Source: Hemileia vastatrix
Lineage: Eukaryota > Basidiomycota > Pucciniomycetes > Pucciniales > Zaghouaniaceae
Direction: 5' to 3'
DNA length: 64,000 bases
Assembly: GCA_030280995.1 (NCBI GenBank)
Contig: JASXTE010000002.1
Span: 38,065,183-38,129,182 of the forward strand
The notes under the pieces are model-generated. The model saw nothing but the letters and a program-made list of their open reading frames with translations, was not told the DNA's origin and made no database searches. Both the position numbers and the translations under genes were made by a program. Each line of letters starts with the position of its first letter. Within the stretch, counting starts at the first letter, position 1. This document shows, in pieces, positions 11,577 through 57,175 of the stretch.

Positions 11577-12247
11577 ATGTCCGCATTCTTTCTTCATCCA
11601 ACTCTCATGTTTAACCTTCTTCCCAAATCTGCCTCTGAAATGGGCCCCTGCCAATACTGCATAGACAATAATTTAATCTGTGCCATGACACCACCTGTCC
11701 ATCCATACAGAACGTCCTGCAATGTCTGCAAATCCAGAAAGAAGACCTGCCACAGACCTGGTCCACTTTCTTCCACAACAGATTCACCTCCACCTCAACC
11801 TGGTCCTTCTTCTGCCAGCACCAAAAGATCTAGGCCATCCATCCTGATACCCAGATTAATCAAAAAGCTCCACCCTTCCCAGAAGAGTGCCACAACCCAT
11901 AAAACAACTAGTTCCCCCATCCCTGGTCCATCTGATGGTAAAGAACATTCATTTCTTCCTTCAACTTTAAAACCGATAACTTCTCAGTTCCTCCCTCTTC
12001 TGATAGTGATGATAACAATGTAGGATCCATTGCACCACCAACACCAACGCACTTGCCCACTATCAAGGCCAAGTTCCAACAACACACATTTCAACAGAAA
12101 CAACTTCTGCTTCACTACTTCCAATCCACTCCTGCTAGAGATCCACAGGACATTGAGAACAGAAGACACCTCATTCACCAGTTCAAGGCTAATTCTGAAC
12201 ACTTCATTTCATCTCTTGATTCCCTCTGGAATTCCACTAGTACTTGA
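11577..12247 (+). CDS. Antisense Zn-cluster protein 1 of gypsy A (spliced)
   Basis: Exons 11577-11937 and 11988-12247 joined over a 50-bp intron (GTAAAG...TTCTCAG) give an uninterrupted 206-residue frame. The start MSAFF matches MSSFF in the element B homologue at 56372. Residues about 23-60 hold C-x2-C-x6-C-x12-C-x2-C-x6-C, ending with CNVCKSRKKTC, which is the spacing of Gal4-type Zn2Cys6 DNA-binding domains. The middle is rich in Pro, Ser and basic residues (KRSRPSILIPRLIKKL). After the splice comes an acidic stretch (SSDSDDNN), then a helix-like region with HYFQSTPARDPQDIENRR, which aligns with HYFQ-type sequence in B. It is opposite in strand to gag-pol and lies between pol and the 3' LTR. 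The function (DNA-binding regulator) is inferred from Cys spacing; expression is unproven. Confidence 0.75.
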
Positions 12248-12308
12248 GTTTGATTCAGAAAAGAAAAATTGACCACACCCTCTATAGGATGTAACCACAA
12301 ACAACCCT

Positions 12309-12775
12309 CAGTTTTAAGTCTTGGGGGACCATCCTCATTTTATAGTCTTGGGGGACTCAAAAACCTAAATCATAAACCCAGAACCAGAGATCAACCACAT
12401 TAAGACACAGAGAAAAAACTAACATTCTGGGGTAATTGTAAATAGAGCAGCCAGCCCATCAATTACCCCCAAACTTGCCTTTGCTAAATTTGGAGGCTCC
12501 CCCTGTGGATACCCTCCACCAATCTTTCAAAACCAACTCCAACAACAAAAAACTTTTTCTTCAGTTTATAGTCTTGGGGGACTTACAACCCTCAGTTTAA
12601 ATTCTTGGGGGACTAACACAGTGTTCAGTTTAAAGTCTTGACAGACTATCTTGATAAAATCTTGAAACCAGCCAGTTTAAAGTCTTGGAGGACTAACAGA
12701 AACCAGATTTCAGTATAAAGTCTTGATGGACTGACTTGATACCATAGCTTTTTCAGTTTAGAGTCTTGATGGACT
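12309..12775 (+). repeat. Cluster of eight copies of a 22-nt motif (gypsy A)
   Basis: Copies start at 12309, 12337, 12562, 12593, 12626, 12673, 12711 and 12754. The consensus in + orientation is CAGTTTA, two variable bases, GTC, TTG, then GGGGGACT or near variants. AGTC and GACT within it are complementary across a 6-nt gap. Spacing is irregular (28 to 225 bp), so this is not a simple tandem repeat. The cluster lies between the two antisense genes. More copies occur at 15215, 15479, 15730, 17287, 19330, 19396 and 19462 in this element. Confidence 0.85.
12429..12469 (+). other. Conserved stem-loop, copy 1
   Basis: GGGGTAATTG (12429-12438) pairs perfectly with CAATTACCCC (12460-12469) around a loop containing AGAGCAGCCAGCCCAT. 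Related hairpins at 15307-15348, 15571-15611 and 58866-58906 keep the loop and the pairing. Confidence 0.8.
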
Positions 12776-12926
12776 GATGGAATTTTGCATAAAATAGACG
12801 CAGCCAATTTCATGCAGCACACCTCTACAGCCAACCTGCTGAACTTCCACCTTCACTTCATCATCTACCCATCACTGACAAAAATCTCCTCCTATCCCTT
12901 TTCATCATCTTTTCTCACCACAGATC

Positions 12927-14497
12927 ATGGCTGGATCTCCTGATGTTAACCCTTCTACTCTCCTTTGCTTCACTGCTCCCAAGGACTATGCCTGCAAACA
13001 GTGCATCCACATGTGCAGACCTTGCACATTCACTCTTCCAAATCCTGAATCCAAATTCTACAACAGGGCTTGTGATTCTTGCTATTCCAAAAAGAAAAGA
13101 TGTGACAGAGACGCCAACTACCCTATTCCTCCACCTTCTCCTTCTCACAAATACATCTCCAGATCCCCTACCATATCCCCAGAGCTTTGTCCTTCCTCTT
13201 CCTCTCTATCTTCTGCTCCTTCCAGAAGATCCAGAAGCTCAGCTTCCCACAATCTTCCCAAAAGACCAGCCTTAGCTTCCCAAGAAACTGCTTTTATCTA
13301 CGCCAAATTAGCTCCAAAAGCTTCAAGATCAACTCCCAGGCTTCTAGACCGCTTCCAGGCAGCCCGGCCGACGTCGGGCGGCCCGCCTGCCTCACCAAAC
13401 AGTGAAAATCAGGGCCAAAACATCCAAAAACGGCCAGAAAACAGCCAAATTCATCCAGACAACAACAACAACTCAACCCAACTACCTCCTACTGCTCCCA
13501 GAGCAATACAATCCACACTTCCAAAGTCCAAAAGCACCAAAATTTCCCAGATTTCTAAGAGACCTGCCAGAGAACCCCAAGAGGAAACCAGAACACCACA
13601 CACTGCTCCACAACAACAACTTTGTCCCCAACTAAGACAAAGAAACTACACCTCTCCTCTGTCAGCCAACTACTCTTCTGAAAGTTCCATCTCTTCAAAA
13701 TCTCCATCCAGAAGAGAGCAGTCTGCTTCCAAATCCCCCTCTCCTGCTCCATCCTTTAACAACCCTGGTACCCCATCACCAGCACCTCCTCCAGCTGAAT
13801 CCAACAGAAATAACAACCACAACAACAAAAACAATCTCACTGCTCCAACTAGGCCCCAGGAACCTCAGAATCCCAGTTAACCTTCTCAGGATCCTTCAGA
13901 GGAAGACCATGAGAATCCATATCTTTCCCTAGTTGATCCACCCACTATGACCATTGCAAACTCGTCAGAGATCCAAATCCCAGCTGCTTACAGATTTGAT
14001 GAGCTTCCAATCTGTAAGTACCAAATTAATTATTCCATTTCTTCAACAAAAATAATTACTGATCCAATTCTTCTTGTCTAGTTGGCACCCCTCCTCCTGA
14101 ATCAATTATTGGAGTTGGCCAACCTCTTGAAACTTCTTTGACCCTGGATTATGGAGACATGAAGAAACACCTAAGCACCATGTGTTCCAACATGCTAAAA
14201 GCCTTTGCCCTCCATGGACCTTTGAATGACTTTGAAAAATCCCTGAGAAAGCGCCTACTGGACGACCACTGGAAGATGTCTAGGATCATTAAACACACCC
14301 TCCAGCACTCCATTCCTGCCTCTTCTTCTTCTTCATCTGAACTTCCCTCTAATCCAATTCTTGATCATTACAATCCCTATCATCTCTCCAGCAGGATGCA
14401 CTTCAAAGAACACAGTGCTACCCACAATCCCAACAAAAAACAAAAACGTCATCACAATCCGGATCCGCCTCCAGAAGCTTCATCATCCAGACAATGA
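12927..14497 (+). pseudogene. Antisense Zn-cluster protein 2 of gypsy A (one stop codon)
   Basis: Start ATG at 12927 (MAGSPDV). Exon 12927-14013 and exon 14082-14497 join over a 68-bp intron (GTAAGT...TTGTCTAG) and would encode 500 residues, but TAA at 13878-13880 interrupts the frame. The sequence after that TAA stays open, in frame and splice-compatible, so the damage is a single codon. Residues about 22-58 hold C-x2-C-x6-C-x15-C-x2-C-x6-C, ending RACDSCYSKKKRCDRD, typical of Zn2Cys6 domains. Next comes a long region rich in Ser, Pro, Gln and Asn with basic patches. Exon 2 has a helical-looking segment, and its tail includes a possible nuclear signal, NKKQKRHH. It appears paralogous to antisense protein 1 in the cluster but not in the C-terminus. 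The alternative is a functional 317-residue product ending at the TAA. Confidence 0.65.
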
Positions 14498-15112
14498 GCT
14501 CCTGCAAAAAAGATTAGAAACATAATAATAATATAAAACAATTAATAAAAATAATTTCAGAATTTTTTATTTTTATTTTTTTTAAATGTACTAATATATT
14601 AAATTAAAAATTTATAAATAAAATGAAATAAAATAAATGAAATAAAATATAATATAAAAAATAATACAAATGGTATCCCCCAGCCAATTGATGAGCTGAT
14701 CCCCTGATACCTTACCCAAATCCAAGTGCATCTTGATGTGGATACACAATTAATTCTTTTAAATGTTTAACAGAAAACAAAATTCAAAAAATTTAGAAAT
14801 TCAGAAGATAATAAAAATAATGAAACACAGAAACACATGAAATAAATAATAAATAAAAATAAAATAGCATTACCCGGCCAATTGATGAGCCTTTCCCCAC
14901 CAATGCTTGCCCACATCCAGGTGACCCTGATGTGGTAACACCCTATATTTTTGATTTTATAATTTTAAACAACCCCCATAAAAAAATTAAAAGAAAAAAA
15001 GAGAAAAAAGAAAATAATCTAAAACTGCTATCTAGCAAAAACATAACTGCAAAATCAAAGACAGTCCAGCTCCATAGATGGTCCAATAAGGGAAAGTCTG
15101 ATCCATAGAAAT

Positions 15113-15168
15113 GATCACTGGGTGGGCTCCCTCCAATAAGTTAAAATGATGGGAGACCACCAGTGATC
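15113..15168 (+). other. Imperfect hairpin GATCACTGG...CCAGTGATC
   Basis: The arm GATCACTGGGTGGGCTCCC pairs, with one-base bulges, with GGGAGACCACCAGTGATC over a 19-nt loop. A related, weaker version is at 58573-58628 in gypsy B. Confidence 0.7.
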
Positions 15169-15306
15169 CACCATTAATCTGAAAGAACCAAAGATAAAGA
15201 AGCCAGTCCCAAACTAGTTTAAAGTCATAGTGGACTTGAAACCTGAATAATAAACAACAGAACTAGAATTCAACTAGGAAAAACAAAGACTTGAAACAGA
15301 CATTCT

Positions 15307-15348
15307 GGGGTAACTGTTCTACAGAGCAGCCAGCTCATCAGTTACCCC
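15307..15348 (+). other. Conserved stem-loop, copy 2 (compensatory change)
   Basis: GGGGTAACTG pairs with CAGTTACCCC. Relative to copy 1 both sides of one base pair have changed (T-A to C-G), preserving the stem. The loop includes AGAGCAGCCAGCTCAT. Confidence 0.8.
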
Positions 15349-15570
15349 CACACTTGCCAAAATAAAATCTAGAAGCCCCCCCTGGGTACCTTCTAACATA
15401 AAACACAACGTCCAACACAAAAAAAACCAAAACCAATAAACAGTGAAGAGTCCAGCACTTGAAAACCAGAGGAAATTCCAGTTTAAAGTCATAGAGGACT
15501 AAAACCTGTGAAAAGAAACCAATACTAGGGTTCAACCAAATTAAGATAAAGGGTTGGAAACAGACAATCT

Positions 15571-15611
15571 GGGGTAACTGTTGATAGAGCAGCCAGCCCA
15601 TCAGTCACCCC
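15571..15611 (+). other. Conserved stem-loop, copy 3
   Basis: GGGGTAACTG (15571-15580) opposite CAGTCACCCC (15602-15611): same fold with one mismatch. The loop AGAGCAGCCAGCCCA is conserved. Confidence 0.75.
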
Positions 15612-15750
15612 TACACTTGCCAAGATCAAATCTAGAAGCCCCACCCATGGGTACCCTCTAACAAAAAGTTTCCAACACAAAAGTTGCTCTGCAACACCAC
15701 AAAATTCCAAAACAAAAAAAGACGTTCCATAGTTTATCCTCATTGCGGAG

Positions 15751-17031
15751 TCAATCTTCTTCATGCCTAGTGCCTCTGGGATAAAACCTCTTCACTTGGT
15801 CTGCAGCCACCCTCTTTTTCAAGACTGCACCATCCAACTCTTCCAAAACATAAGAACCTCCAGACGCCTGAGATCTGACTCTTTAAGGTCCATTCCATCT
15901 GTCAGCAAACATTTTCCCCCACTGACTCTCCAAACTTCTATTATACACCAAAACCAAACAACCAGGTTTCAAGGTATTCCTGAGTCTATGAGCCAACTTC
16001 TTGTCCCAGTATCTGACTGATTGATTCCTAATCTTCATCATTCTAGAGTATTCCTTCTCCTGACATTCCTCTCTACATTCCAACTGTTGCATTCTGGCAC
16101 AGAGCAAATATTCTGTTGAGTGAACGTCATCCCAATCAATTCCAAGATAAGAGAAAGCTTCCAAGTACACTGGTAGAACGGCTTTCTGACCAAACATTAA
16201 CTCATAAGGAGAATAGCCAGTTGTCCTCTTCACAGTGACCCTATCAGCAAATAACACCAAGGGTAAATAATGCCTCCACTTTTCAGCACTATCTACTCAC
16301 ATCTTCACCAAAGCATTCTTGATAACTTGATGGCCTCTTTCAACCATGCCTTCAGCTTCAGGATAATACGGTGTAGCCACTCTAACTTTAGAACCAACAC
16401 TAGCCACAGCTTCTTTAAATTCGGCCCCAAACTCTGGCCCGCTATCAACAGTCACCAACTTCATCAACCCATACCTATAAATCCACTCCTTCTTCAAAAA
16501 CTCTGCCACATTCTTGGCAGTCAAATTAACCAGAGGCACTGCCTCAACCCAACCAGAAAAATCATCCCTAGCAACAATCAAGTATTTATACCTGCCCTCT
16601 TTAATATGGACAGCATCTAGACTGACCCTTCCAAAAACAGTTGATTCACCAGTAGCACGGCCCACCTCTTTAGGTTTCAAGTGACTTCTTCTTTGACATT
16701 CTTCACAAGATTGAACCCAACCCTGCACAGCCAACTTCATACCTGGCCACCAAAATCTGTCTGCTACTCTTCTATAAGTCTCCCCAAAGCTTCTATGACC
16801 AAGGTCTTCATGCAAAGATTTCAAAACCAATTCTTGACCCTTCTTCTGAGTCACCACCACTTGAGGATTAGGATGCCTTCTCCTCACCAACCTTCTTCCT
16901 GACACATAAAATCCAGGACTCTTCTTCTTGATTGCTAACCAAGTATCATCATCACAACTATCTGGCCTCTCCAAGGTCAACAGATATTCCACCAAAATAA
17001 AATAAAACCCAGACTGACCCCAGGTCTCATC
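15751..17031 (-). pseudogene. Gypsy A integrase
   Basis: C-terminal part of pol, which inserts the cDNA into the genome. The zinc-binding part shows HEDLGHRSFGETYRRV and CEECQRRS. The catalytic core shows LDAVHIKEGRYKYLIVARDD, VDSGPEFG and an ERGHQ glutamate, the D-D-E set. A C-terminal SH3-like stretch ends YVLEELDGAVLKKRVAAD and VKRFYPRGTRHEED. One frame covers it, interrupted by TAA at 17032-17034 (before DETWG), TGA at about 16294-16296 and TAA near 15880. Element B has sense codons at these places. The pol stop TGA (15751-15753) directly adjoins a 22-nt motif copy. Confidence 0.85.
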
Positions 17032-20001
17032 TTAAAAATCCAACAACACCACATCCAAGGGTACAATTCTGTCATCAAAATCACCAGTATGAACATGAGC
17101 CAATTGAGCAGCCCAACCAGGACACCAATCCTTAAATTTTGGCACATCCTTCTCTTTCCACTGACCCTTTTGAGAATCCAGTTCACTAACAAAAACACCC
17201 TTTTCCAATTTTGAGCTATCCCAAACAACAACTCCATCTTCATCAACAAAAACATCCTGATCACCAGAATCAAGATCAGATCCAGCCAGTTTAGCCTCTT
17301 GGGGGAGGTCAAAAAAATCTTCAGCACCTTTTGTGCTGGCCCTAACCACTGGAACATCCTCATCAAACTCTTCAGCCTCAGAATCTTCATCTGTAGGTGG
17401 CCTCCTTGATAATCCATCAGGCATAGTAAAAGTTTTACCTGGTTTGTGTACCAGGTCAAAAGAAAAATGTTGAATAAATGCAACCCACCTAGTCATTGGA
17501 GCATTTGGAAGACTAGGTGTATTGATCATCTGAACCAAAGATTTTGCATCCACCTGCAGCTCAAAATGCTGCCCCCACAAAACCGTCTGTAGCTTCTTTA
17601 AAATTTTAGCTATGCCACACAATTCCAACTTAGGTTGAGAATACCTAGATTCCACCTCATTAAACACCACAGACTCATATCTTACTGGCCTGACCCTCCC
17701 AGGCTTATCCTCCTGAGACAAAACAGCACCAGCAGCAATATAACTTGAGTCCACTTCCAGATAAATTTTTCCAGCACCAACCCCATAATCCAACTTGTGA
17801 AGAACAATATCTTCACCAACAACCTTTTTCAACTTCTGAAAAGCCTCTTCACATTCTTCAGTCCATTCCCAATCTGCATCTTTTCTGGTCAACCTCCTTA
17901 AAGGTGAAGCCAACAAAGAAAAATCCTTAATAAAAATCCTGACATATACACATACACCCAAAAATCCCCTGACTTCAGTAGTATTTTTAGGCCTTGGCCA
18001 TGACTGAATTTTATTAATCTTCTTCTTTGCCATAATCCTTCCCTCTTTACATACCACATGACCCAGAATTTCCAAAGCAGGAACACAACAACAGAATTTT
18101 GACCCTGAAATGGTCAAACCAGCCTCTTCAATCCTGAACAACACTCTATCTAGAGTTATTGCATATTCCCACACAAACCTCCTTATGCCAGGGTTCTCCG
18201 CTAACACCTCATTACCATAATCAGTGAATGGTCCTTTAATTCCACCATCATCAATAAAAATACCAGCATGAGTAGGAACCTCATCCTGCAAAATCCAAGC
18301 CATCTGTGCTTGATAAACTGCCACTGAATTTGTTGCTCCTTGAGGCAACCTAGTGAGCTGAAATCTTCCCAAAGGAGTCTCAAAAGTTGTGAGAGGCCTT
18401 GAATCCATATGTAGTTCCCTCTCATCATAACCACCCATAATATCACCCAACCCATAACACACCCTTCCAGAAAAAGCTTCAACAAAATCCTCTGCACTTG
18501 GTGGCATACCAGCGTCCTTGATAGTGACTCTATTCAAGGCTCTAAGATCATGAACCACCTGCAACTTTCCATTCTTCTTCTTTACACAGAACACCGGACT
18601 TGAGTAACTGGATGTTGATTGTTCATATAACCCAGTCCTGACTCTTTCCCTAACAATCTCCATGAAATCCTCTCTAATAGCGGCTGGAATCGGAATAGGT
18701 TTGATTTGCAAAGGTTCATGACAAACCACAGGAATCAAGTAAGGTTCCCCATAAGAGTGCTTCAATACACCCCTTTCCTCCTCAACAAACGCCACAGCTT
18801 TTTCCCTTAGCACAATAACGTGCAACAACAACTTCTTTTCTTCTTCAGACAACCACCCATCAGGACCAAAATTAACAACTTTCAATCTTTCCACAGTCAC
18901 CCTAGCCGTCTCTACAAATTCTGGAGGATTCTTCACCAAAGGAGTACAGTACGGATCTCTTGACAAAGGAGGTCTCTTCAAAGGAGGATTCAAACCCACA
19001 GGCATAGGCTCATTGACAGGCCTAATCTTCTGCGCTACCTTCTTATATTTTTCCACTCCACCTTCAACTTGAGGGATCTTCAGGAATTCTTCATCACCAG
19101 ACCTGGAACAAAAACCAAGGGATTCCCCATTGCTCACATGTGTGGCCAAGGTAATGTTTTTGAAAGGTGTAGAAGAAACCCTAGTGGTGCACAATTGGGA
19201 GGACTTACTTTTACACCCCAATCTCACCACTCCAAAACTTTTCCGCAATTCCACGTCTTCATCCTCACTTCCGACTTCCAAATCTTCAAATCTTAATTCA
19301 TCTTCTGAATCACATATTCTAACATTATGCAGTTTATCCTCATGCTGGAGGCCCAAAAATTGATCTTGATGATCTTCTCTCTTCAAAATTTTATGCAGTT
19401 TAATCTCATGCTGGAGGCCCAAAAATTTATCTTGATGATCTTCTCTCTTCAAAATTTTCTGCAGTTTAACCTCATGCTGGTGGCCCAAAAATGGATCTTG
19501 ACGATCTTCACAACAATATTTTGCATCTTCTTTCTTCATTATCTTCAGATTTTTTTTTTGATTTTCATGAATTATCTTGAAATTTTTATCTTCTTTTCTT
19601 GAGTTTTCTTCTGACCTACAAAAATAACCAGGGGTTTCCCCAATGCTCACAGGTGTGGCCCAGGTAATGTTTTTGAAAGGTGTAGAAGAAACCCTAGCGG
19701 TGCACAATTGGGAGGACTTACTTTTAGAACCCAATCTCACCGCCCCAAAACTTTTCCGCATATCTTTCAATAAAGATATATAACCAATCTTCTTCCTTGA
19801 ACTTGAATTAAAAATAATTAAGAATCTTGAGAGAGAACAGAGACTTGATAAAAAACTTGATGAATACTTGCAAAGAAGAGAAACATTAAAAAGAGAAAGT
19901 TGAAAATCCACTTGGTATATCTCCAAGGGAGCTGACCTACTACAACCTGGGATTTCCGCATCTTGGGGAGAGGTTGTAGCACTAGGGTGATCAGCCCTCA
20001 T
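17032..20001 (-). CDS. pol: Gypsy A reverse transcriptase and RNase H
   Basis: Open frame of 989 codons overlapping the protease frame by one base and in the -1 frame relative to it. The N-terminal third is low-complexity and repetitive (three LGLQHEIKLH-like repeats between two copies of a segment of about 50 residues). RT follows: LYEQSTSSYSSPVFCVKKKN, VHDLRALNRVTIKDAG, LTRLPQGATNSVAVYQ and active site FIDDGG, then the connection and RNase H with VDSSYIAAGAVLSQ and VESRYSQPKLELCGIAKILK. It ends with PDGLSRRPPTDEDSE and an acidic linker into integrase. Probably made as a Gag-Pol fusion through frameshifting. The whole domain is free of stops, although the following integrase is not. Confidence 0.9.
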   Translation of the reverse strand: MRADHPSATTSPQDAEIPGCSRSAPLEIYQVDFQLSLFNVSLLCKYSSSFLSSLCSLSRFLIIFNSSSRKKIGYISLLKDMRKSFGAVRLGSKSKSSQLCTARVSSTPFKNITWATPVSIGETPGYFCRSEENSRKEDKNFKIIHENQKKNLKIMKKEDAKYCCEDRQDPFLGHQHEVKLQKILKREDHQDKFLGLQHEIKLHKILKREDHQDQFLGLQHEDKLHNVRICDSEDELRFEDLEVGSEDEDVELRKSFGVVRLGCKSKSSQLCTTRVSSTPFKNITLATHVSNGESLGFCSRSGDEEFLKIPQVEGGVEKYKKVAQKIRPVNEPMPVGLNPPLKRPPLSRDPYCTPLVKNPPEFVETARVTVERLKVVNFGPDGWLSEEEKKLLLHVIVLREKAVAFVEEERGVLKHSYGEPYLIPVVCHEPLQIKPIPIPAAIREDFMEIVRERVRTGLYEQSTSSYSSPVFCVKKKNGKLQVVHDLRALNRVTIKDAGMPPSAEDFVEAFSGRVCYGLGDIMGGYDERELHMDSRPLTTFETPLGRFQLTRLPQGATNSVAVYQAQMAWILQDEVPTHAGIFIDDGGIKGPFTDYGNEVLAENPGIRRFVWEYAITLDRVLFRIEEAGLTISGSKFCCCVPALEILGHVVCKEGRIMAKKKINKIQSWPRPKNTTEVRGFLGVCVYVRIFIKDFSLLASPLRRLTRKDADWEWTEECEEAFQKLKKVVGEDIVLHKLDYGVGAGKIYLEVDSSYIAAGAVLSQEDKPGRVRPVRYESVVFNEVESRYSQPKLELCGIAKILKKLQTVLWGQHFELQVDAKSLVQMINTPSLPNAPMTRWVAFIQHFSFDLVHKPGKTFTMPDGLSRRPPTDEDSEAEEFDEDVPVVRASTKGAEDFFDLPQEAKLAGSDLDSGDQDVFVDEDGVVVWDSSKLEKGVFVSELDSQKGQWKEKDVPKFKDWCPGWAAQLAHVHTGDFDDRIVPLDVVLLDF
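19096..19760 (-). repeat. Internal duplication flanking motif-encoded repeats in pol
   Basis: About 150 bp at 19096-19253 is repeated directly at 19608-19760; the peptide core KSSQLCT.RVSSTPFKNIT occurs twice. Between them lie three tandem repeats of about 66 bp (19330, 19396, 19462) encoding LGLQHEIKLHKILKREDHQD-type units. Each repeat contains the element's 22-nt motif on the + strand. Confidence 0.85.
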
Positions 20002-21290
20002 TACTCTAAAAAAGACAGACTCTCAATAGAGCCTGAGCCGCACTCCAAAAAACCAGAGGCAGCACCCACTTCCTTCCTTCTCCTGCAGCAGTCCATGCAC
20101 TGGCACATTGAAGATAAACCAGGCCTAGTCTCCCAACCATCCTCTCCAGGGGATGACAACCTCATGTGAAGCCTCCTTTTGTCTTCACCAGTCAACTCCA
20201 AACTGATTCCCAAATCAAATTGATAACCAATTCTTGCCTGAAAATCCATCAAGAATGGCCCACCCAAAACTGCTTTTACATTACCTTTAGCAATGTAAAA
20301 ATGAGCCTTCCCTGAGGCTCCTCCAACATCTAACTTCACAAACTCTGAATTTCCAACCAATTCAGTGACATGGCCACCGATCCCTCTCAAATTCCCACCA
20401 ATACCAGTTTTGATGGGGAGGCCCATATGAGTTGCCTCAAACAAAGAAATCAGGTTTATCTGAGAACCTGAATCCACCAATGCCCTTGCCTCCCTGCCAT
20501 TCAGAGTGACATTGACATATCCCAGAGGAACAGAAAAATGAGTTTCCAACCCCTCACCAAACTTTTCAGCAGAATCACAGATGTATTCCACCTCCCCAGA
20601 AGACACCCTTCTTCTGGTCAACAACTTTTTTTGTCTATCAGCCAAACCTGGACTGATAGCATACAATTCCCCATAAGATAGGGAAACCTGACCCTGATTC
20701 ATCCTTTCCAGAACAGAGTCCATAACATTAACTTGACCAGACACTACTGGCCTCTCAAAGTGAGCCCTTGGCTTCACCACCTTGGTCCTAGAAGCTTCTT
20801 GAGGACCAGCACCACCAACAGATTTACCATTAACAGGAACCAAACCAGATCCCTCACCAGAACCTCTGACTCCAACAGGCTTTGGCAATGAAGCCAAAGG
20901 GACATCCTCCTCAGAGTCAGAATCCACCTCCATTGGCATTGGCTCACCATTCATATCCAATGCGCCAAAACTAGGGGGGCCCATATCAGCCATACCCTTC
21001 TGCATCTTGTACAGCTCCTCTTTGCTGTACCTCTTCCAAGCTGCACTCAGCTTAGGATCCACCTTTGAAGAATTTGGCTTTAGTTGGGCCTGAGAACTGC
21101 TCTTAGGCCTTCCCACCTTCACTGCTTCCACATCATAAACACCAGCCAAGCATTCACCACTTAACTGTCCACCACAAGAATACAACTCCAAACCACCAAA
21201 GGAAGTAGAAAAAGAGACCTTATTGACCACCTTCCCCTTTCCCTTGACGTCCTCATCTACCTTAACAGAAGACTTCCCCTGATCAGGAAT
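20002..21290 (-). CDS. Gypsy A protease region
   Basis: Frame continuous with gag beyond a single TAG. After a long linker (acidic MEVDSDSEEDV, Gly-rich) comes a retropepsin: ALVDSGSQINLIS holds the catalytic D-S-G, and AVLGGPFLMDF is the family's C-terminal ILG-like motif. The domain spans roughly 20250-20540. The frame ends at TAA 20001-20003. The U-rich heptamer at 20007-20013 and the -1 position of the next frame indicate production by programmed frameshifting into RT. The protease would cut the Gag-Pol polyprotein. Confidence 0.85.
20007..20013 (-). promoter_or_regulatory. Putative -1 frameshift site UUUUUUA
   Basis: On the element strand the protease frame reads U UUU UUA two codons before its TAA stop. 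Slipping one base back leads into the open RT frame. This is a textbook X XXY YYZ heptamer. A downstream pseudoknot was not identified. Confidence 0.7.
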
Positions 21291-22382
21291 CTACTCAAAC
21301 CTTGGCCTCCTTTGATTGAGACCACCCCTTCTCCTGACCAAATCCACAGGAGCCTGCCCCTCACTGGGCTTCACAAAAGAACCGTCAGGGAACTTAAAAA
21401 CCCTGCCATCAAACTCCACTTTTCCTTCAGACACATCTCTGTTCAGTGCCCAACAATCATTGGACCTGTGCCCCCTCCTACTGCAATAAGAGAAAACCCA
21501 AGGATCACTCCTACCAGCCCTCCTTTCAAAATCTCTAGGCTGAGAAGGTTCCTTATTAACCTTCTTGGCCTCTTGAACAAAAATGTGCAGCTGCTTTGTA
21601 AGATCAGCCAACTGCTCCACCATTGGGTCCCTCTCCTGTTTGGGAGCCTGCACCAAATTCTTCTCCTCCTTCTTCTCCCTAACTTCCACTTCAACCAAAG
21701 CCTCACTGACTTTGCTGACATACTTGGCACACCCCTCCTGATAGGTGTCCACAGCCAATAACTTCAAATGGGCCTCAACAGCCTCCTTCACCTTATCCAA
21801 GGCAGGCAACTTCTGGTCCCCATTAGAAAGAGTATTCATCAATTCCTTTCTTGACAACTCCTTCAACACATCCATCCTGACATCTCTAGCCAGGGCAGAC
21901 CAAAAAACATCCTTGGCAGCATTTTCATGTGCCAGCTCCTCCACTTCCACCAAATATTCCACCACAGGATCAAACTGTAGCAGAAACTTCCTGTAACTAT
22001 GTAAGTTACCAACACCACCATAAGATTGCCATTCACTGACAACCTTGTTCAGATCCACCATAGTGAACCTGACCCCCCATCTGTCCACAATTTCCCTACA
22101 CAACAATTTCCAATCCCTCTTCTTTTAGCCAGACATGGCCACAATCTCCTTCTCCACTGACCTATCACCAATGAAGAAGATAATCTGCTTCACCATGTCC
22201 AGGTAGGAAGCACCATCCACTCCAACAGCAGTTTCATACTTCTCTAGAAACCACTTGACATCCTCCCCATTAAACTTGGTACCATCCCAAGTTTTAATCC
22301 TCACACACTCCCTAACCATCACAGAAGGAGGACCATCCCCCCCACTGACAGTCACCACAGGAATAGAGGAACCAGAAGCCAT
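21291..22382 (-). pseudogene. gag: Gypsy A gag
   Basis: Capsid and nucleocapsid protein. The start ATG at 22380-22382 (MASGSSIPVV) fits better than upstream non-ATG codons. A capsid-like region has IKTWDGTKFNGEDVKWFLEKYE, followed by a coiled-coil-like Lys/Glu-rich stretch. Near the end is a zinc-knuckle remnant, YCSRRGHRSNDC, in which the first Cys of C-x2-C-x4-H-x4-C is replaced by Phe. An in-frame TAA at 22125-22127 interrupts the N-terminal third. The frame ends in TAG at 21291-21293 and continues in frame into protease. A single nonsense mutation explains the TAA; the TAG could be mutation or readthrough. Confidence 0.85.
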
Positions 22383-22452
22383 TCCTCCAGTCCAAAACAC
22401 CAAAAATAGCCAACCAAAGAAAACAGAGATTCCAAAGAACTAGAAAGTTCTA

Positions 22453-22469
22453 CCCCATGTTGGGCGCCA
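22453..22469 (-). other. Gypsy A primer binding site
   Basis: TGGCGCCCAACATGGGG on the element strand, four bases inside the 5' LTR. It has the TGGCGCC start common in LTR elements. The priming tRNA was not identified. Confidence 0.7.
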
Positions 22470-22473
22470 GAAA

Positions 22474-23566
22474 TGTAGAAAATCCTATAGTACTAGCTAT
22501 AGGCCTTGACCAAGGGAGTTGGAGAGAAACCAGAGAGAAAATCCCCTGTCCCTTTAGAAAAATAGAGTGAGATTTACTTGCTAAAGTAAGTTGGTTCTTG
22601 TTTTGCTAAAGCCCCTTTTAAACACACTTGACTGCTTGATGAGCCAAGAAAGTAGTCCCCAGATAGACTACCAGACCAAAGAACTGAAATGTAGAACAAA
22701 GTCCACACCAGAGACAGCAAAGATACTTGATGTAGGCTGCAAATCCACACCAGAGACAGCAATAATACTTGCTATAGCTTTCAAGACTATAACAGAGAAA
22801 ACAGTTGCCAAAATTAAGTTAAATGAAGAACTTACTTGCAACAAACACAGCCAATTGTGGCCAGAAAACAGTGAAAACTGAGTGAGGAACAATGAGATCA
22901 CCTCCGGATGGTTGTATGATGATTAAGGTTGCCCCAAACTGTCTTATTCACTATGTACACACAGACCACTAACTAAGAGCACATGCGCACCCACCAATCT
23001 GGCACCTGTACCCGCCAAATTGCATAAAAAACCCTCCTGAAGCACTCCCCAACCTCCTAAAACAGAGGCGGGCGGGCCGCCCGACGTCGGAGATGCCGCC
23101 TGAAGCGGCCCGGCCTCCCTGAAGCCAGAAAACCAACAAAAACCACTAATCTACTTAGAAAAATTAGCTACAACTACTAAAACCTTTAAAACACGGAATT
23201 TCACTATAACAACATTGAGACATGAAATATAGAGAAAAATTAGCTCTATCCAATGGTACTAAGCACTTAACCCTAAGACTTAAGGTTAGCCAGTAAAACA
23301 CAAAAAACAAAATTAAACAGCAATCTTTTATAAATGAAAAATGAGGAAATGACCCCTTAAAACTCAGAATATGAAAAATGTCTTCAAGACATAAAATATA
23401 GAGAAAAACCAGGGCTATCTAATGATAGTACCCACATACCCGCAGACCCAATATCCACAGAATAAAACCAGAAAAATACCCTATTCCTTAACAGATGTCA
23501 ATTAAGACATGCACAAACAGCGCCAAATCACACAACAAAGGCCCCTGTCAATGTTGGAAGACCACA
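22474..23566 (-). repeat. Gypsy A 5' LTR
   Basis: 1093 bp, the partner of 10466-11558 and of equal length. About 17 substitutions by eye, several clustered near the outer end. Its GC-rich box reads GAGGCGGGCGGGCCGCCC and extends the match to antisense gene 2 by a few bases compared with the other LTR. Confidence 0.95.
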
Positions 23567-23570
23567 ATGT

Positions 23571-29500: not shown

Positions 29501-29625
29501 AGGTGTAACATCACCCGGTATGCGTTGGGCACACGAGTTTTTGCTATACTTATAATATTAATAACATAATGGTGACAAAAAATCAATCAAATGATAAATA
29601 TGAGTGAGGCACAAAGGTCAAATAC
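23571..29625. repeat. Satellite array, right part (about 608-bp units)
   Basis: Ten palindromic cores start at 23631, 24243, 24852, 25460, 26074, 26684, 27291, 27901, 28510 and 29092, spaced 607-614 bp except the last (582). The 28510 core is a perfect 38-bp palindrome; others have one to several changes, often in the central CGGCCG. Each unit also has a weaker second inverted pair about 130-150 bp after the core (CCACCTG...CAGGTG type). A recurring GGTGTAACATCACC and GCATTTGGCACACAAG stretch lies near the unit end. The last two units are closest to each other. No gene is supported. Confidence 0.92.
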
Positions 29626-45400: not shown

Positions 45401-46171
45401 GCAAATGAAATCAGTGAACTTGATATTTTCTTCAGAATTGCAAATTCACTGTTACTAATATTCAAATTATCATGATATAAGAATTTCAAAAGCTTTATTT
45501 TTTAAGTATGTAATATCAAAGGGAAAAAAAGTAAAATAATGCAAAAAAAAAGACTCAAATTTAAAGGCCAATATCTCAACAACCACTGAACCAAATTCAA
45601 ACCCATTTATTGCAAATAGAAGGTAGGCTTCAGGAGAATCTTTAGATAAAAGAACATGATATTTTAATAGACATAACCCTAATCTAATTTTTTCAAAATT
45701 GTGTAAATATTTGTTAAGTAATAGTGAAAATGACATCAAGAGGAGTTAAATAAGTCCACCATTACCCAGGTAAGGGTCCTAAATTTATTTGAGTGTGAAT
45801 TATATATAGAAAGAAAAAGATATCAAATAGTCATGAAAAAAAGGAGTTGACAATTACTTTGATGGAAAGACAGGAGAGAATAGATTGAGAAAGAGAAAAG
45901 TTTAAGTTTGGGGGAAATTTAATATGGAGCAAATGAATTGCATAAAGAATGTGATATAAAGAATAAAATGTGACAACAATGAAGTGAGAAAGGTAGGGAG
46001 GCTGTGGCCAAAATGTGGTCATGAAAAAAAGATCAAGAAAAAAGTGCTGATTAGAGGTCATAAATGACACAAATTTATGAAATAAGTGACTTTTTTGCAA
46101 AATTTAAGAGCTGATTTGGTTTGAAATCTTCATTTTACTTAAGTGTGGATTTTCCAGAACTGATACTCACT
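42498..46171 (+). mobile_element. Harbinger-like element 1
   Basis: Ends AGGGGGTTTCAGTTCTG (42498) and the inverse of AGTGAGTATCAGTTCTG (46171), with ATT on both sides (42495-42497, 46172-46174). Subterminal copies of AAGTGCGGATTT- and AAATAAGTCACTTATTT-like sequence follow. The transposase remnant starts at 42900. From about 43430 to 44960 the content is AT-rich and unrecognised and may be a further insertion. A segment at about 45548-45694 matches two segments in element 2. Confidence 0.7.
42900..43405 (+). pseudogene. Harbinger-like transposase fragment (element 1)
   Basis: Same protein as in element 2, starting MSRKHYLLHRKPQVLH. In one frame with stops at about 43083 and 43219: FRQLFRTSKEFFLKL, HLGSNGNGAALKNLENI, then GCIGFFDGAPIPLSQ, where GCIGF.DG contains the first catalytic Asp of the PIF/Harbinger DDE nuclease. 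Truncated after INHSEK, losing the remaining catalytic residues. Confidence 0.7.
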
Positions 46172-47324
46172 ATTAATTTCCTTTTAAGATCTTTCAAACG
46201 CATCAAATTTTCTGAATGTCCTTTTTGGTGTGTTTTGATATTTGAATTAGATCATAAGCAGTCTAAGAATGTTTGGAGCACTAAGAGAAAATATGCAATG
46301 ACATATTAGGGGGTGTCAGTTCTGGCAAATCCACACTTAACTTAAGTGCGGATTTCAAACCAAATCAGCACTTAAATTTTTAAAAAAAGTCACTTATTTC
46401 AAAAATGGGTGTCAGTTCTGACCTCAAATCAGCACTTTTTTCGTGATTTTTTTTTCAAAACCACATGTTGGCCACATCATCCCTTTCTTTCCCATACCAT
46501 TTTGTACTCTCCAAAAGTCCTCTTTGTGTACTTCATTCACTTAGGTTGGTATTTTGGTTTGTTTCATATTCATTTTTTTTTGGAATTTACAGTGAAAATC
46601 TCTTTTTTGGATGACTCATTGGTTTTCTTTCACCAGCTCAACATGAAATTGCATATTTTCTGAAATCACATATTTTTTCAGTGATTTTTTTTTCATTCAT
46701 CCCTCATATCCTTTTCCTATTCTCCTCCAACATCCCTCAAACAATTTGGTTTCATTCATTTTCTCATCTCATCTCTCCAGGTAAGTCATTTTATTCTTTT
46801 TTTTTGATTTTTTGATTACTAATTATGATTATTTTTGTTCTTTTCTGTTTATTTTATTTTTTTTATCTAAATTTTTTTTGTAAGTGGTTATTTTGGATTT
46901 CAATGGTATAATTAACCTTTTTTTCTCTCCCTCTTTACTTTCTTTTTTAGCTCCATCACCCTACTCTTCATCCCTCCTTTGCATGGTCATTATCCCCCCT
47001 TTCCCTTATTTCACTTTTTTTTGGCTCCATTTCATTGAAACACATAAATTGCACATTCTTTATGAATTTCACTTACTCCATATTCAATTTCACCACAATT
47101 CCAACATCAATCTTTCTCACTCTATTTTCCTACTTTTCAATCAAGGTAAGTTTCATCTCCTTTTTTTCATGCCTATATGATATCTCATTCCTTTTATGAA
47201 AAGTTCATACTTAAATATATGTATGACTCTTATCTGGATAACAGTGAACTTATAAAACTCTTTTTGAGTTCATCTTCATTACCACTTTTCATGTTTTTGT
47301 AAAATTTTGAAAATCAGACTCGGA

Positions 47325-47650
47325 TTTAGGGTTAGGTTTATTCAAATCTAATGCTCTTTTTACTGAAGATTCTCCTGAAGGCCACCTTTCATTTCCTACA
47401 AACAGATTTGAATTTGATTAAGTGGTTGCAGAGATATTGACCATTAAAGTTGAGCCTTTTTTTTCCCAATTTAAATTTTTATTTCATTTTTTTATGTAAC
47501 AAATTAGGGTTAGGTTTATTTAAATCATATTTTCTTTAACTGAAGATTCTACTAAAGCATATCTTTCATTTCCCACAAACAGTTTTGAATTAGGTTCAGT
47601 GGTTGCTGAGATTTTGACCTTTGAAGTTGAGCCTTTTTTCCAAATTTCAC
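47325..47650 (+). repeat. Tandem pair of about 150-bp repeats
   Basis: Two units (about 47325-47470 and 47505-47650) share TTAGGGTTAGGTTTATT, GAAGATTCT, a TTTCATTTCC box, a GTGGTTGC-GAGAT box and AAGTTGAGCC. A third copy is on the minus strand at about 45548-45694 in element 1, the mirror position. Noncoding. Confidence 0.7.
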
Positions 47651-47753
47651 TTGTCTTATTTCACATTTTTATATTGCATATTTAGAGGATAAGGATTCTG
47701 AAACTCTTATATGATTATTATCTAGGCATTTCAATTATATAGGCATATATTCA

Positions 47754-48329
47754 TTGCTCAAGAATATCACTAAAGCTCAAAAAGATGAAGATTTTTGCTT
47801 ATGGGACACTCTTCCTTCCTTTAACTCTTTTCTTGCTCTTCGACTCAAAAAGCACTGTAATAAAGCATTTGAAAAAAATCATGAACTTGCAACCAAAGTT
47901 GGAATACCGAACTGGTGTGACTCCAAATGGGAAGATATCAGCCATGAATACCTTTTATTTTCTAATGTTATTATCACTCATTCTGGATTTCACAATAAAA
48001 TTCACACTGATACCAATGACACCAATTTTCTTACTTTTGGTATATTCTCATATATCAAACCGATTACTGGCCAACCAATACCATCTCCAGCTAAAATCAA
48101 ATGACATGGTTTATATTTTCCACACCACCGGTGCATCATTGATTTTGGTTTGGGAAATGGTATCATCAAAACTATTTGGAATTATTCTAAGGATAATCAT
48201 TAAACAACCAAAGCTCCTCCTGGTTTGGAATCCTGTCAAGATTTAACACATTTTGGTTGCTCATTTCAAATCAGTCATAAGTTGATTCAAAGAATCAATA
48301 AGGTAATGAAAGAAGGTAAAGTTAATTGA
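47754..48329 (+). pseudogene. Tet/JBP-like 2OG-Fe(II) dioxygenase remnant
   Basis: One frame with stops at 48102-48104 (TGA) and 48201-48203 (TAA) and no good ATG. It shows WEDISHEYLLFSNVIITHSG, then HTDTNDTNFLTFGIFSYI, with an H-x-D iron-binding pair, then GLYFPHHRCIIDFGLGNGII and a distal His in YSKDNH. The end is HFGCSFQISHKLIQRI. This order and wording match the Tet-like dioxygenases abundant in rust genomes, related to enzymes that oxidise modified bases in DNA. About 190 residues remain; the N-terminus is missing. It lies inside Harbinger-like element 2, convergent with the transposase. Confidence 0.7.
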
Positions 48330-48464
48330 TTTAAAAAAACTTTATTTAGATCCAAAAAATATGGGGATTAGAGTTGTCATCAAAAATTTTATATTTTTTC
48401 ATAAATTTTTAATAAATATTTTTTATGTATCAATTTCCTCAACTAAAGTAATGGGCCAACAACA

Positions 48465-48668
48465 TTGTGTTGTATAAAAGGTAATCATGATAACATTTAT
48501 TTGTTTCATGGAGTTCCTCTAGCCTATACCTGTGGAAAGTCCCAAACTTTTGTTTCTAGATTTGATCTGCATTTTGGCTTGAGGGATTGTCATTACTTTA
48601 AACTAGGGAAATTGATATATATTAGATATTTATTTAATAATTTACGTAATTATATTAAATTTAGATGA
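48465..48668 (+). other. Small unassigned frame in element 2
   Basis: 67-codon frame starting MCCIKGNHDNIYLFHG, with no recognised family. It lies between the dioxygenase remnant and the transposase. It could be a further piece of either or noise in AT-rich DNA. Confidence 0.25.
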
Positions 48669-48779
48669 ATTCCACCACTTACTTCAATAAAATGCAGGGG
48701 GGGGGGGTATTGCCAAATTTTCAAATCTGACATGTGAAATTGATGACTTAAAAATTTTTTGGTGATATCCACCCCTTGC

Positions 48780-49380
48780 TTCAATAAAATTCAGGGGAGA
48801 GTATTGCCAATTTTTTAAAACAGATATAGAATTTTTTTGACTTGTAAATATTTTGGTGAAAATGTTTGACAAGAATGTGAAAGTAATTGTTTCCACCTTG
48901 AGAAGGTTTCTGGCTCAAAGGAATAGCAGTACCATCAACAAAACCAATACATCCTGGGAAGCCCTCTGCTTGCATAACCTGAGATGATTCAAGTCGCTCT
49001 TCATTTGTTGGCCAGGTGAGAAGTTGAGATTACAAGGAGTTGATGGCAGTGATAAATCGTTTGGTATAAGTTTTAACTGAACCATACCCTAAATCAAAGA
49101 CATTTTCTAAAAGTTTCAAAGTGGCTCCATTACCATTTGAACCCAAATGACATAGTGTGATGGCCAATTGAATTGAAGGATGTCGTTGTTCTTTTTGAGA
49201 ATCATTGTGAAATATGGGATGATCCTGAATAAGCTCAAGCAATTCAAGGAAAAATTCCTGAGAAGTCCTGAACAGCTGTCTAAAACTGGGTGTAGATAGG
49301 TTAAGAAGTGTTTGGATGGTGTACTTGGGGGTATGAAGTACTTGAGGCTTTCTGGGAAGTAGGTAACGTTTCGTGGCCAT
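48780..49380 (-). pseudogene. Harbinger-like transposase fragment (element 2)
   Basis: Begins MATKRYLLPRKPQVLHTPK at 49380. Residues 35-115 include FRQLFRTSQEFFLELLELIQ and CHLGSNGNGATLKLLENVF. A single TAA follows SL (49030-49032), after which the frame continues TWPTNEERLESSQV and FPGCIGFVDGTAIPLSQKPS, with the catalytic Asp. It ends in repetitive DNA near 48700-48780, where a 45-bp segment is duplicated. The rest of the DDE domain is absent, so the element cannot move itself. Confidence 0.75.
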
Positions 49381-49820
49381 TTTTGATAAAAAGACAAAAT
49401 CTTCTTCTAGATCAGAATCAGAATTTCAATCAGAGTCCAAGAGCAGTTCAAGAGCCATGAAAGTCATTGCTTTATGTAATTTATCACGATTTGAAAGTGA
49501 AGAAGGCAAGACTCTTATATGATATGATATGAAAATGTAAATGATGTACGATGTTTTGAGTTATGAAGTGTTATGCTGTGGAGTGCTGCGTATGAATGGG
49601 ATGATGCTGACAAATCAGTGAAATGGGACTTGATGGTGAAATCAGCACTTTTGGTTGTGAAAGTGCAGATTTGAGTGAAATAAGTGACTTATTTCATTTT
49701 GAAATCCACCAGTATTGGGGCTAGTGTGTTTTGGAAATCTGCACTTATTTAAGTGCGGATTTGGTCAAATTTAAGTGCGGATTTGTAAGTGCGGATTTGC
49801 CAGAACTGATACCCCCTATT

Positions 49821-50546: not shown

Positions 50547-50734
50547 TGTTATGTACATAAGGTTAAAGACATATTTATTTGATATCATGTACTTAGATAT
50601 CTAGTATAAAACCTATGGTTCAGCCAACATGTCTAACTCTGGTCCACTCTGGATGAAATGCTGATGCTGCTACCATAGGTGAGTAATCAATATTACTTTT
50701 TCACTCCAGACAAAATTCTGATTCTGCTACTATA

Positions 50735-54828: not shown

Positions 54829-55312
54829 CACCACAGAAAATCAGGGGGTGAACTGCTAGCAGTTCCCTCTCTTTGAAACTTTCAGGAAGAGGTTGGGAAA
54901 ACATTGGGGAAATGTTGTTAAAGTGTTAGGAAACTTTTTTTAAATTAGATGAAAAAATTTTGGAAAAAAAGTTGGCCCTAAATTGAGCCTCAATTTATCC
55001 CTTCTTGAGAAGAGCTTTAGATTCAATTTAAGTATCAGTTGGACCAAATTTGAGCAATGGTTGAGCCACAAAACTTATCATACCATAATATTCAATTTTA
55101 TATCTAGATCCATTGAATGTTGAGAGGTAAGCACTACTTTCAGTTATCTATCTTTATTTAGTTATTATTAAAATGTGAGTCAACATTAATTATTAACATA
55201 CATGAAAAACTCAATTGTGAATATTGATCTAATATTATATATATTCTCTACTTTATTCTCTTTCAAAAATTTACTCTCATCCTCCCTTTATTTAAACTAC
55301 CACCATAACCAT
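54829..55312. repeat. Palindrome-bearing repeat, third copy
   Basis: Begins CACCACAGAAAATCAGGGGG with palindrome AACTGCTAGCAGTT directly after the second copia 3' LTR. The next 250 bp resemble the right arm of the 23.5-kb block (30601-30860). Ends at the LTR of gypsy B. Noncoding. Confidence 0.65.
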
Positions 55313-56353
55313 TGTAGAAAGACTCTTACAGTCGCCTTGCTGTAAGCAGAATCTGAAGGAGTTGGATAATCAGAGAAAACCCTGTCCCTCTAAATGAATT
55401 TGTGAGTTTTTCAGATTAATAAGCTTAAATGTCTACTTGATAATAATAAAGATTGAAACCCTGTTTGATTAACGCTTGTTAGGATGATTGAGCGGTTCTT
55501 CTGTGCAAAACAACTGAAATGCAACAATAAAGTTACACCAGATACAAACTTTTTAAAAGAAAGAAGTTTTAGTGTTTTTAGATTTTAATAATTTTTGAAA
55601 ACAGATACTATAAATGGGTCCCTGGAGTTGAGACCTTTCTAATGATAACCTATATTTTAATCTTTAAGAGTTGTTGAGTAAAATTGTTATTTTATAAGGG
55701 TATTACAAATAATTAATTATTTTGTTGACAAAAGAAAAATATGAATAATGGTTGTTATAATCATGTATCTGTCTACATACACTGTCTAGCTGACACTGAA
55801 TAATTTTGAGTCTACAGCCTTATATGCATATTAATCAGTCACGTGTCCTTTTTCCCTCTGGAGCGCGGCCAGAGCTTGTACGGACCTCCAGACTCAATCT
55901 AGAACCTTAAATCTAAAATAAAAAATCTAGAAAAATTACACATGATAGAGCTACTTCTCCTTAACATTTTTAACTATTTTTCGTAGTCTGCGCAGCTTTA
56001 TTAACCCCCTGAAAAATCCTCAAAGTTAAGTAATTTTTGAAAAATGTAAATAATTTTAATAAAGCTTTAAAAATCAATTAAAAATATAAGAAAAATAGTA
56101 AAAATTCAGGAAAAATTCCCAAAGGTTTTTGAGCTTCTTGAATATCATTAAATTTAATTTTGCGGCTATAAAAAATCATATGACCTGTGATATTAATAAA
56201 TCTGACCAAACATTCATATCTTGACTTTTTCAACTTCATTTTACGTTAATAATAAAATATTTTAAACTAATCCGGCTTCTCCAATCACTGTCCTATTCCC
56301 AATAAGTTTTCTAAATAGAATTTTAGAGCCGTACTAAGATTTGGAATGCCACA
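55313..56353 (-). repeat. Gypsy B 3' LTR
   Basis: 1041 bp, TGTAGAAAG...GCCACA, homologous to the A LTR at both ends (GAGTTGGA...AACCAGAGAGAAAA-like start). The GC-rich box of A is not conserved; a moderately GC-rich stretch is at 55858-55890. Confidence 0.85.
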
Positions 56354-56363
56354 TCCTCCCTCC
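56354..56363 (-). other. Gypsy B polypurine tract
   Basis: GGAGGGAGGA on the element strand, adjoining the 3' LTR as in element A. Confidence 0.8.
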
Positions 56364-56371
56364 AATGAAGA

Positions 56372-57175
56372 ATGTCCTCATTCTTTGAATTTTGCATGTT
56401 TGATCGATATATAATCCTACTTTTATCTTCTCCATATTCATCTCTTCATCATTTCTTCAACATCCCACTCCAACTACATAAACTTATTTCTACTTTTATA
56501 AGTACCATAATCAGTATGAAAGATCTTTCCATACGATGCGAGCTCTGTAAGAAATATGAAGTCACTTGCTTGATGTCCTTTCCAAACCCTCCTGGAAGAA
56601 CTGCTTGTGATCTCTGTTGCTCCAAAAAGGTTAAATGTGTCCTGCCAACTTCTAAACCATCTTTCAATCCTATTTTTGGCCCATCTACTTCTCCAGCTTC
56701 CATTTTATCCAAGAAAAGATTATCAAAAATACCGGTATTCTGGAAAAGGATCAAGGCTATTTCTAAACCACCATCTCCAACTTCATTTCTAATCTCTCCT
56801 TCTCAAGATCCTTCACCCATACTTCCAGTTTCTCCTTTTTCTTTTGCCCAGACTTTATTTCCTGGGTCCAAAAGTAAGCCTTTTAATAATTATTTATCTA
56901 TTCCATACTAAGCTCAACAATGCCTTTTCCATCTTTTAGCTATTAACATCACCAACTCTGATGATGTAGGTCAAGTCCAAATGGACAATATAAATCATTA
57001 TCCTAAATTTCATAGATATCTTTTTCTTGAATTTACTGACAATATAAAGAGAAACATTTTATCCTACTTCCAAGACACTCCTGCCAATAATCATGAAGAT
57101 ATAATGAAGAGAAGATTGTTGATGCAGAGTTTTGATGATGATGTAGAAAAATTTCAGCAAAATTATTTGTTTTAA
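56372..57175 (+). CDS. Antisense Zn-cluster protein of gypsy B (spliced)
   Basis: Start ATG at 56372 (MSSFFEF), 18 bp inside the LTR edge as in element A. Exons 56372-56873 and 56940-57175 joined over a 66-bp intron (GTAAGC...CTTTTAG) give 245 residues without stops; the intron is phase 1, as in A. Residues about 58-92 hold C-x2-C-x6-C-x12-C-x2-C-x6-C: CELCKKYEVTC and CDLCCSKKVKC with FPNPPGRTA between. Basic and Ser/Pro-rich segment next (KKRLSKIPVFWKRIKAI), then after the splice NSDDVG and SYFQDTPANNHEDIMKRR, aligning with A. An upstream hydrophobic stretch (YIILLLSSPYSS) may mean that a later Met (MKDLSIRC) is the real start. An intact frame in an otherwise broken element suggests recent selection or chance. 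Confidence 0.75.

Follow-up and report, generated by a model that had tools for sequence, protein, structure and literature searches.

Intron-bearing antisense genes with a predicted zinc cluster in gypsy retrotransposons of Hemileia vastatrix

Accessory genes read on the strand opposite to the main genes have been described for retroelements of more than one kind. HBZ of human T-cell leukemia virus type 1 (HTLV-1) is a spliced bZIP protein of a retrovirus, read from the 3′ long terminal repeat (LTR), and brtn of the Boty-like gypsy elements of Botrytis cinerea was reportedly the subject of Zhao et al. in 2011. The present analysis concerns a window of 64,000 nucleotides (nt) from Hemileia vastatrix (GCA_030280995.1, contig JASXTE010000002.1, positions 38,065,183 to 38,129,182) and, within it, two gypsy elements, A and B. 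Each has, as in the aORF-3R class of accessory frames, an antisense frame between pol and the 3′ LTR, opposite to gag-pol, here called gene 1; element A carries a second such gene, gene 2. In plants, antisense open reading frames (ORFs) occur in the gypsy elements Grande (gene23), RIRE2, and Retand, and two papers suggest a nuclear or DNA-binding role for them (PMC7264820, PMC11963269). The Retand ORF carries a TRP28 domain, which is thought to bind DNA, and the same paper mentions nuclear HBZ (PMC11963269). The 2020 review by Vicient and Casacuberta lists brtn among the ORFs between pol and the 3′ LTR and gives the function of gypsy antisense accessory proteins as unknown (PMC7264820). The pol of Boty is stated to carry a chromodomain (PMC4227169).

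The preliminary description of this DNA, made from the letters alone, was aware of no counterpart described from gypsy elements of fungi. That wording was too strong, since Boty of Botrytis has the antisense gene brtn, as recorded in three papers (PMC7264820, PMC8365987, PMC4227169). Compared by description only, brtn and gene 1 are alike in being antisense additional genes of a fungal gypsy element; they differ in that Boty pol has a chromodomain, as cited above, whereas none was matched in the scanned frames of element A. The plant ORFs likewise are antisense accessory genes of gypsy elements, as in A and B, but encode another protein domain (TRP28 in Retand) and belong to plants, not fungi. 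A word search of the Retand paper, in the text available, did not return the words intron and zinc (PMC11963269). The likeness to HBZ, an antisense regulator of a retroelement, is an analogy only: HBZ is a bZIP protein and no domain was found that it has in common with the gene 1 protein. No zinc-cluster antisense gene of a fungal retrotransposon was present among the literature matches listed, as judged from titles and abstract openings and with most subscription journals outside the coverage, and a survey of rust transposable elements does not use the terms antisense and zinc finger in its main text, by word search (PMC12210899). By the literature found, antisense accessory genes are already known in gypsy elements, and what appears to be new is a zinc-cluster, intron-bearing one in a fungal element. 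Its parts are as follows.

11640..11937, + strand: gene 1 of A, exon 1, with the cysteine cluster and a proline/serine-rich linker, from translation; ATG 11577 lies upstream, in frame
11938..11987, + strand: gene 1 of A, phase-1 intron, GT-AG in 60 of 61 copies
11988..12247, + strand: gene 1 of A, exon 2, from translation and conservation; a two-helix hairpin is predicted, as modeled on B
56516..56873, + strand: gene 1 of B, exon 1, from translation; ATG 56372 lies upstream, in frame
56874..56939, + strand: gene 1 of B, phase-1 GT-AG intron, read directly
56940..57175, + strand: gene 1 of B, exon 2, from translation and predicted structure

Three features that had been attributed to these genes hold: direct reading confirmed one phase-1 GT-AG intron in each, and translation confirmed both the stop-free spliced frames (206 amino acid residues in A counted from 11577, 245 in B from 56372) and the spacing C-x2-C-x6-C-x12-C-x2-C-x6-C. 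Splicing is required for an open frame in the window copies of both elements. The spliced proteins of B and A are homologous, with 28% identity over 186 columns (E 1e-18).

The genome searched comprises 747.6 Mb in 791 contigs. A DNA search with gene 1 of A gave 2274 first-look candidates (a loose number), of which 40 were scored and 40 matched; the corresponding protein search gave 261 exon matches from the best 150 scored of 15601 first-look candidates, again a loose number. After removal of 8 loci that duplicated an already used place, the family A alignment held 61 distinct copies, namely 21 chosen by DNA similarity (the window copy included), 30 top protein matches, and 10 lower-ranked ones. 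These copies were retrieved through gene 1 itself, and the counts below are counts of copies, not the share of elements that carry the gene. GT-AG is kept in 60 of them and the frame in 57; the six cysteines are in register in 47, and 39 are fully open from 11577.

A dN/dS-type comparison across copies gave ratios of nonsynonymous to synonymous differences per site (pN/pS) that are below 1 and lowest in the true frame, indicating purifying selection. Selecting copies by protein match pushes this ratio down for gene 1, so that fair tests come from gene 2 and from the set chosen by DNA similarity. That set of 21 copies has a true-frame pN/pS of 0.57 (interval 0.35-0.95), the remaining + frames giving 1.14 and 0.90. 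Across all 61 copies the true-frame value drops with the distance between copies, from 0.57 to 0.40 in exon 1 and from 0.56 to 0.35 in exon 2; among the wrong + frames, the +1 frame of exon 1 stays at 0.62-0.84 and the others lie at 0.97-3.16. For pairs at least 6% apart, in neither exon does any other of the six frames fall as low as the true one (pN/pS 0.38 and 0.40). Insertions and deletions (indels) point the same way: comparison of 20 other copies with the window copy reveals 1 distinct indel in the exons of gene 1 (558 nt) versus 41 in the adjacent 670 nt, and 13 in 939 nt of noncoding LTR. Gene 1 divergence is 0.017-0.024 versus 0.021-0.085 in the surroundings, a difference that is partly an effect of choosing copies by gene 1.

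A third family, C, came to light in a search with the B protein, which gave 8 uninterrupted matches at 60-63% identity. The one copy that was read has an LTR/polypurine edge upstream and a continuous frame of 203 residues; what is left of the shortened intron is read there in frame as coding sequence. B and C have 61% protein identity, and over 195 codons pS is 0.78, that is, saturated, with a pN of 0.23; saturated synonymous sites together with so low a pN are strong evidence of a selected protein. These comparisons show that gene 1 frames, intron-bearing in A and B, are under purifying selection in several gypsy families, and gene 1 is almost certainly a real protein-coding antisense gene.

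The translation start had been placed 18 nt inside the LTR edge. The + frames are indeed open from there in A and B, but the start codon probably lies further downstream, at 11640 in A (185 residues) and at 56516 in B (197 residues). The ATG at 11640 is intact in 60 of 61 copies and that at 11577 in 50; constraint is slight over the 21 codons that follow 11577 (pN/pS 0.63-0.97 across distance classes, with wide intervals); and in the family C copy the ATG at the equivalent place opens a frame of just 11 codons. The upstream ATGs, 11577 and 56372, were rejected as starts on these grounds.

The intron of gene 1 is variable, with 8 distinct indels in 50 nt versus 3 in the 558 nt of exon (61 copies). 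When read from 11640, 19 copies are open only if spliced, 21 are open both ways, 2 only if unspliced, and 19 neither way. All except two of the 21 copies open both ways (19/21) have an intron of 51 nt, and retention of the intron in this subgroup is possible. In the 51-nt class (34 copies), pN/pS of the read-through frame is 0.84, and variation is 0.121 in the intron core versus 0.081 and 0.052 in the exons. An intron, as against coding sequence, is the better reading of this segment because the read-through frame shows little constraint and the exons are less variable than the intron. Two distinct internal deletions within the intron were observed (loci L033 and L069); 30 nt remain in L033, and family C holds an in-frame remainder.

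Element A carries gene 2 downstream of gene 1 on the same strand.

12927..14013, + strand: gene 2 of A, exon 1, with the cluster C-x2-C-x6-C-x15-C-x2-C-x6-C
14014..14081, + strand: gene 2 of A, phase-1 intron, GTAAGT...TAG; GT and TAG in 24 of 26 copies
14082..14497, + strand: gene 2 of A, exon 2; pN/pS 0.30 in distant pairs

In the window copy a nonsense codon (13878-13880) interrupts gene 2, and the gene is fully open in 2 of 26 copies. The copies compared were picked on gene 1, not on gene 2, and 3 partially matching loci were removed; a separate protein search with gene 2 gave 125 matches from the best 125 scored of 15132 first-look candidates. In distant pairs (n=146, mostly between two groups of copies) the true-frame pN/pS is 0.35, 0.40, 0.52, and 0.30 in four segments versus 0.96-1.60 in the other + frames; near pairs give 0.60-0.97. 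The exons hold 11 distinct indels in 1503 nt versus 77 in the 1341 nt downstream (20 copies against the window copy). Judged by these ratios, gene 2 is under purifying selection. The cluster regions of gene 2 and gene 1 align in a profile comparison (probability 85%, E 7e-7), and because of this the two genes look related; outside the cluster region there is no confident alignment. Element B, which runs off the window, gave no sign of gene 2 at E 1, apart from a weak similarity between the gene 2 cluster and B's own gene 1.

Two further observations concern gene 2. A 19-nt stretch at 13358, which shifts the frame, is missing from 15 of the 26 copies; it is bounded by a repeated GGCGGCCC and is missing in copies from both near and distant groups, for which reason it may have been lost repeatedly. 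In addition, 20 GC-rich nt beside this stretch, at 13368-13387, are the exact reverse complement of 11063-11082 in the 3′ LTR, part of the block rich in CGG/CCG triplets that is listed below.

Two C-x2-C-x6-C halves with six cysteines are present in gene 1 of A, B, and C and in gene 2. The preliminary description took this for a Gal4-type Zn2Cys6 domain. A related six-cysteine cluster is borne out, and family C passes the cut-off of Pfam family Zn_clus (PF00172; 24.3 bits against 21), but the halves are swapped and the domain is not of the plain Gal4 type. The basic half is C-terminal here (ACDLCRVKKVKC in family C, as in GAL4 and PPR1) and N-terminal in Gal4-type domains. When the four second halves were scanned alone, those of C and gene 2 matched Zn_clus positions 1-15 and 1-16 and those of A and B matched nothing; of the four first halves, that of A matched positions 17-35 at 14.7 bits and those of B, C, and gene 2 matched nothing. 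The separate halves that match do so at opposite ends of the profile, and the cluster is thus in swapped order relative to Gal4, as after circular permutation. Comparable arrangements occur in basidiomycete proteins.

Of the four clusters, only that of C passes the Pfam cut-off; pieces of gene 2 and B score 16.5 and 14.4 bits, and the full proteins of A and B and exon 1 of gene 2 gave no Zn_clus match at E 0.1. Among sequences of solved structures the best matches are two Zn2Cys6 factors, PPR1 (E 0.0095) and GAL4 (E 0.4), both aligned to the second half. Canonical Zn_clus domains are scarce in the genome, with 13 matches at E 0.001 among the best 150 scored of 3258 candidates. AlphaFold modeling of the cluster exon (3 sequences) was too poor to judge a Gal4-like fold; the C-terminal exon of B (2 sequences) was modeled as a two-helix hairpin with a mean predicted local distance difference test (pLDDT) score of 79.4 and block values of 79-97. 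A fold search with this hairpin returned nothing at E 0.001, three protein searches returned no relatives of the antisense proteins, and TRP28 (PF04195) was absent from the Pfam scans of A, B, C, and exon 1 of gene 2, with exon 2 of that gene unscanned. The product of gene 1 is predicted, with good confidence, to be a zinc-cluster DNA-binding protein.

A plausible sequence of events can be proposed. RNA polymerase II would start in or near the 3′ LTR and transcribe inward; the antisense transcript would be spliced and translated into a small protein, which would enter the nucleus, pair by its C-terminal two-helix hairpin, and bind DNA, most likely at sites in the LTRs of the element itself. 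Binding would set the output of gag-pol and of the protein's own gene, in trans over copies. The antisense orientation would also preserve the intron over cycles of reverse transcription, presumably because in the sense genomic RNA the splice sites would be present solely as their reverse complement. That the protein is a regulator of the element in a broad sense, the relief of silencing discussed below included, seems likely; that the accessory gene acts, by way of a spliced antisense transcript, as a nuclear DNA-binding regulator of the element is the narrower proposal toward which we lean.

The most specific form of this proposal is a self-made antisense cassette, in which the proteins of one or two related, permuted Zn2Cys6 genes would bind CGG-rich sites in the LTR and act in trans as an on/off switch for the family, splicing making production of the protein depend on antisense transcripts. 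Zn2Cys6 proteins usually target CGG triplets, and the LTRs of A hold candidate sites.

11065..11105 (3′ LTR) and 23069-23113 (5′ LTR), no strand assigned: CGG/CCG-rich block, candidate target sites, by triplet density

These blocks are the two densest in the window, with 9 and 8 triplets in 60 nt; 1000 simulated sequences reached a maximum of 6, versus the 8 observed. Two points weigh against their use as targets: the block differs more from copy to copy than other parts of the LTR do, and within the window it is confined to the LTRs of A, with no dense CGG/CCG block in element B. Since it was noticed post hoc, is more variable between copies, and is missing from B, the block as a target site is a lead only, and the complete cassette is put forward tentatively, as a scheme that may well prove wrong in one part or another.

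If the proposal is correct, an abundant lineage of retrotransposons in a fungal genome of very large size would encode its own transcription-factor-like proteins, which would give a starting point for asking how these elements evade silencing and burst. The permuted zinc cluster would add a domain class to the few accessory proteins known from the antisense strand of gypsy elements, one whose kind of DNA target can be predicted and tested in vitro, and the genes would be a clean example of introns retained in a retrotransposon through their antisense position.

Other explanations of the same genes have to be weighed. VANC proteins of the VANDAL elements of Arabidopsis are anti-silencing factors, and by analogy the antisense protein might bind the DNA of its element and relieve silencing by chromatin or DNA methylation, instead of being a classical activator or repressor of a promoter. 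This would predict the same anatomy, and both the CpG-rich nature of the CGG/CCG block in the LTR of A and the C-to-T or G-to-A changes that several copies show within that block are in keeping with it; we regard it as the less expected form of regulation, with perhaps a modest chance of being right.

A part in the replication cycle, as a nucleic-acid chaperone, in nuclear import of the pre-integration complex, or in targeting of the integration site, appears improbable. A cysteine cluster followed by a basic linker and a helical tail could suit such a role, and import and accessory functions are proposed for antisense ORFs in the Vicient and Casacuberta review (PMC7264820). Separately spliced antisense expression would, however, be unusual for a structural protein, and in its basic half the cluster is like those of DNA-binding Zn2Cys6 factors.

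In other elements the antisense transcript can be functional as RNA, according to the same review (PMC7264820), and the antisense RNA of A and B might itself silence or tune the sense RNA, the protein being incidental. This is very improbable, because selection acts on codons in both exons and in gene 1 and gene 2 alike, and because the protein is kept between B and C despite saturated synonymous sites.

The many broken copies would suit frames that are open by chance, or a host gene that was captured and carried along without function, an origin that is barely credible in the face of a frame and cysteines kept across A, B, and C, an intron position shared by A and B, frame-specific constraint, and few exon indels; a chance frame was rejected on the strength of the frame-specific selection, the scarcity of exon indels, and the recurrence in three families. 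Equally hard to credit is a sense-strand gene or sense RNA element whose constraint the antisense frame merely mirrors: one minus frame per exon does have the next-lowest pN/pS, 0.51, but these two carry 1.9 to 4.0 stops per copy, the six minus frames tested carry 1.3-7.9 versus 0.13-0.23 in the true + frames, and divergence by codon position of the true + frame runs third > first > second, so a sense-strand gene was rejected on account of the interrupting stops.

The elements themselves, and the features that accompany them, are the following.

10466..23566, - strand: element A, an LTR-bounded gypsy retrotransposon, from its LTR pair, with ATGT flanking both sides (by eye)
10466..11558, - strand: 3′ LTR of element A in the sense of gag-pol, by comparison of the LTR pair
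22474..23566, - strand: 5′ LTR of element A, by the same comparison
11559..11570, - strand: polypurine tract adjoining the 3′ LTR of A, from sequence and the LTR edge
16297..22124, - strand: gag-pol frames of element A, from ORFs and a Pfam scan
59812..63463, - strand: integrase, RNase H, and other pol frames of element B, from ORFs and Pfam; the element extends beyond the window
11575..11588, also 56370-56383, no strand assigned: inverted repeat GAATG-N4-CATTC, common to A and B and overlapping the start codon proposed earlier

The LTRs of element A measure 1093 bp and are 98.4% identical. Its frames match RVT_1, RT_RNaseH, aspartyl protease, Integrase_H2C2, and rve in Pfam; gag-pol is split into several frames by stops in the window copy, and gag is assigned from position only. 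The insertion is hosted by an array of approximately 606-bp tandem repeats (8149-10443 and 23546-29692), the copies of which are 60% to 93% alike. The pol parts of B and A have 70-77% identity in three repeat pairs, and the LTR edge of B was located by similarity to A (a 46-nt match) and by eye. The inverted repeat GAATG-N4-CATTC occurs twice in the window versus 0.10 times expected, a count reached by 2 of 100 shuffles; it is intact in 45 of 61 family A copies, and its conservation is no better than that of the neighboring sequence.

Elsewhere in the window, Copia-type frames (RVT_2) lie on the minus strand at 31209-34492 and 6509-7333, beside a repeat pair (6160-6666 and 30861-31366) that is 93-99% alike. 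A frame with mevalonate diphosphate decarboxylase domains at 182-1123 represents a host gene close to the window edge. Finally, the region 42594-49700 consists of nested inverted repeats with arms of 523, 198, 186, 179, and 170 nt that are 75-84% complementary.

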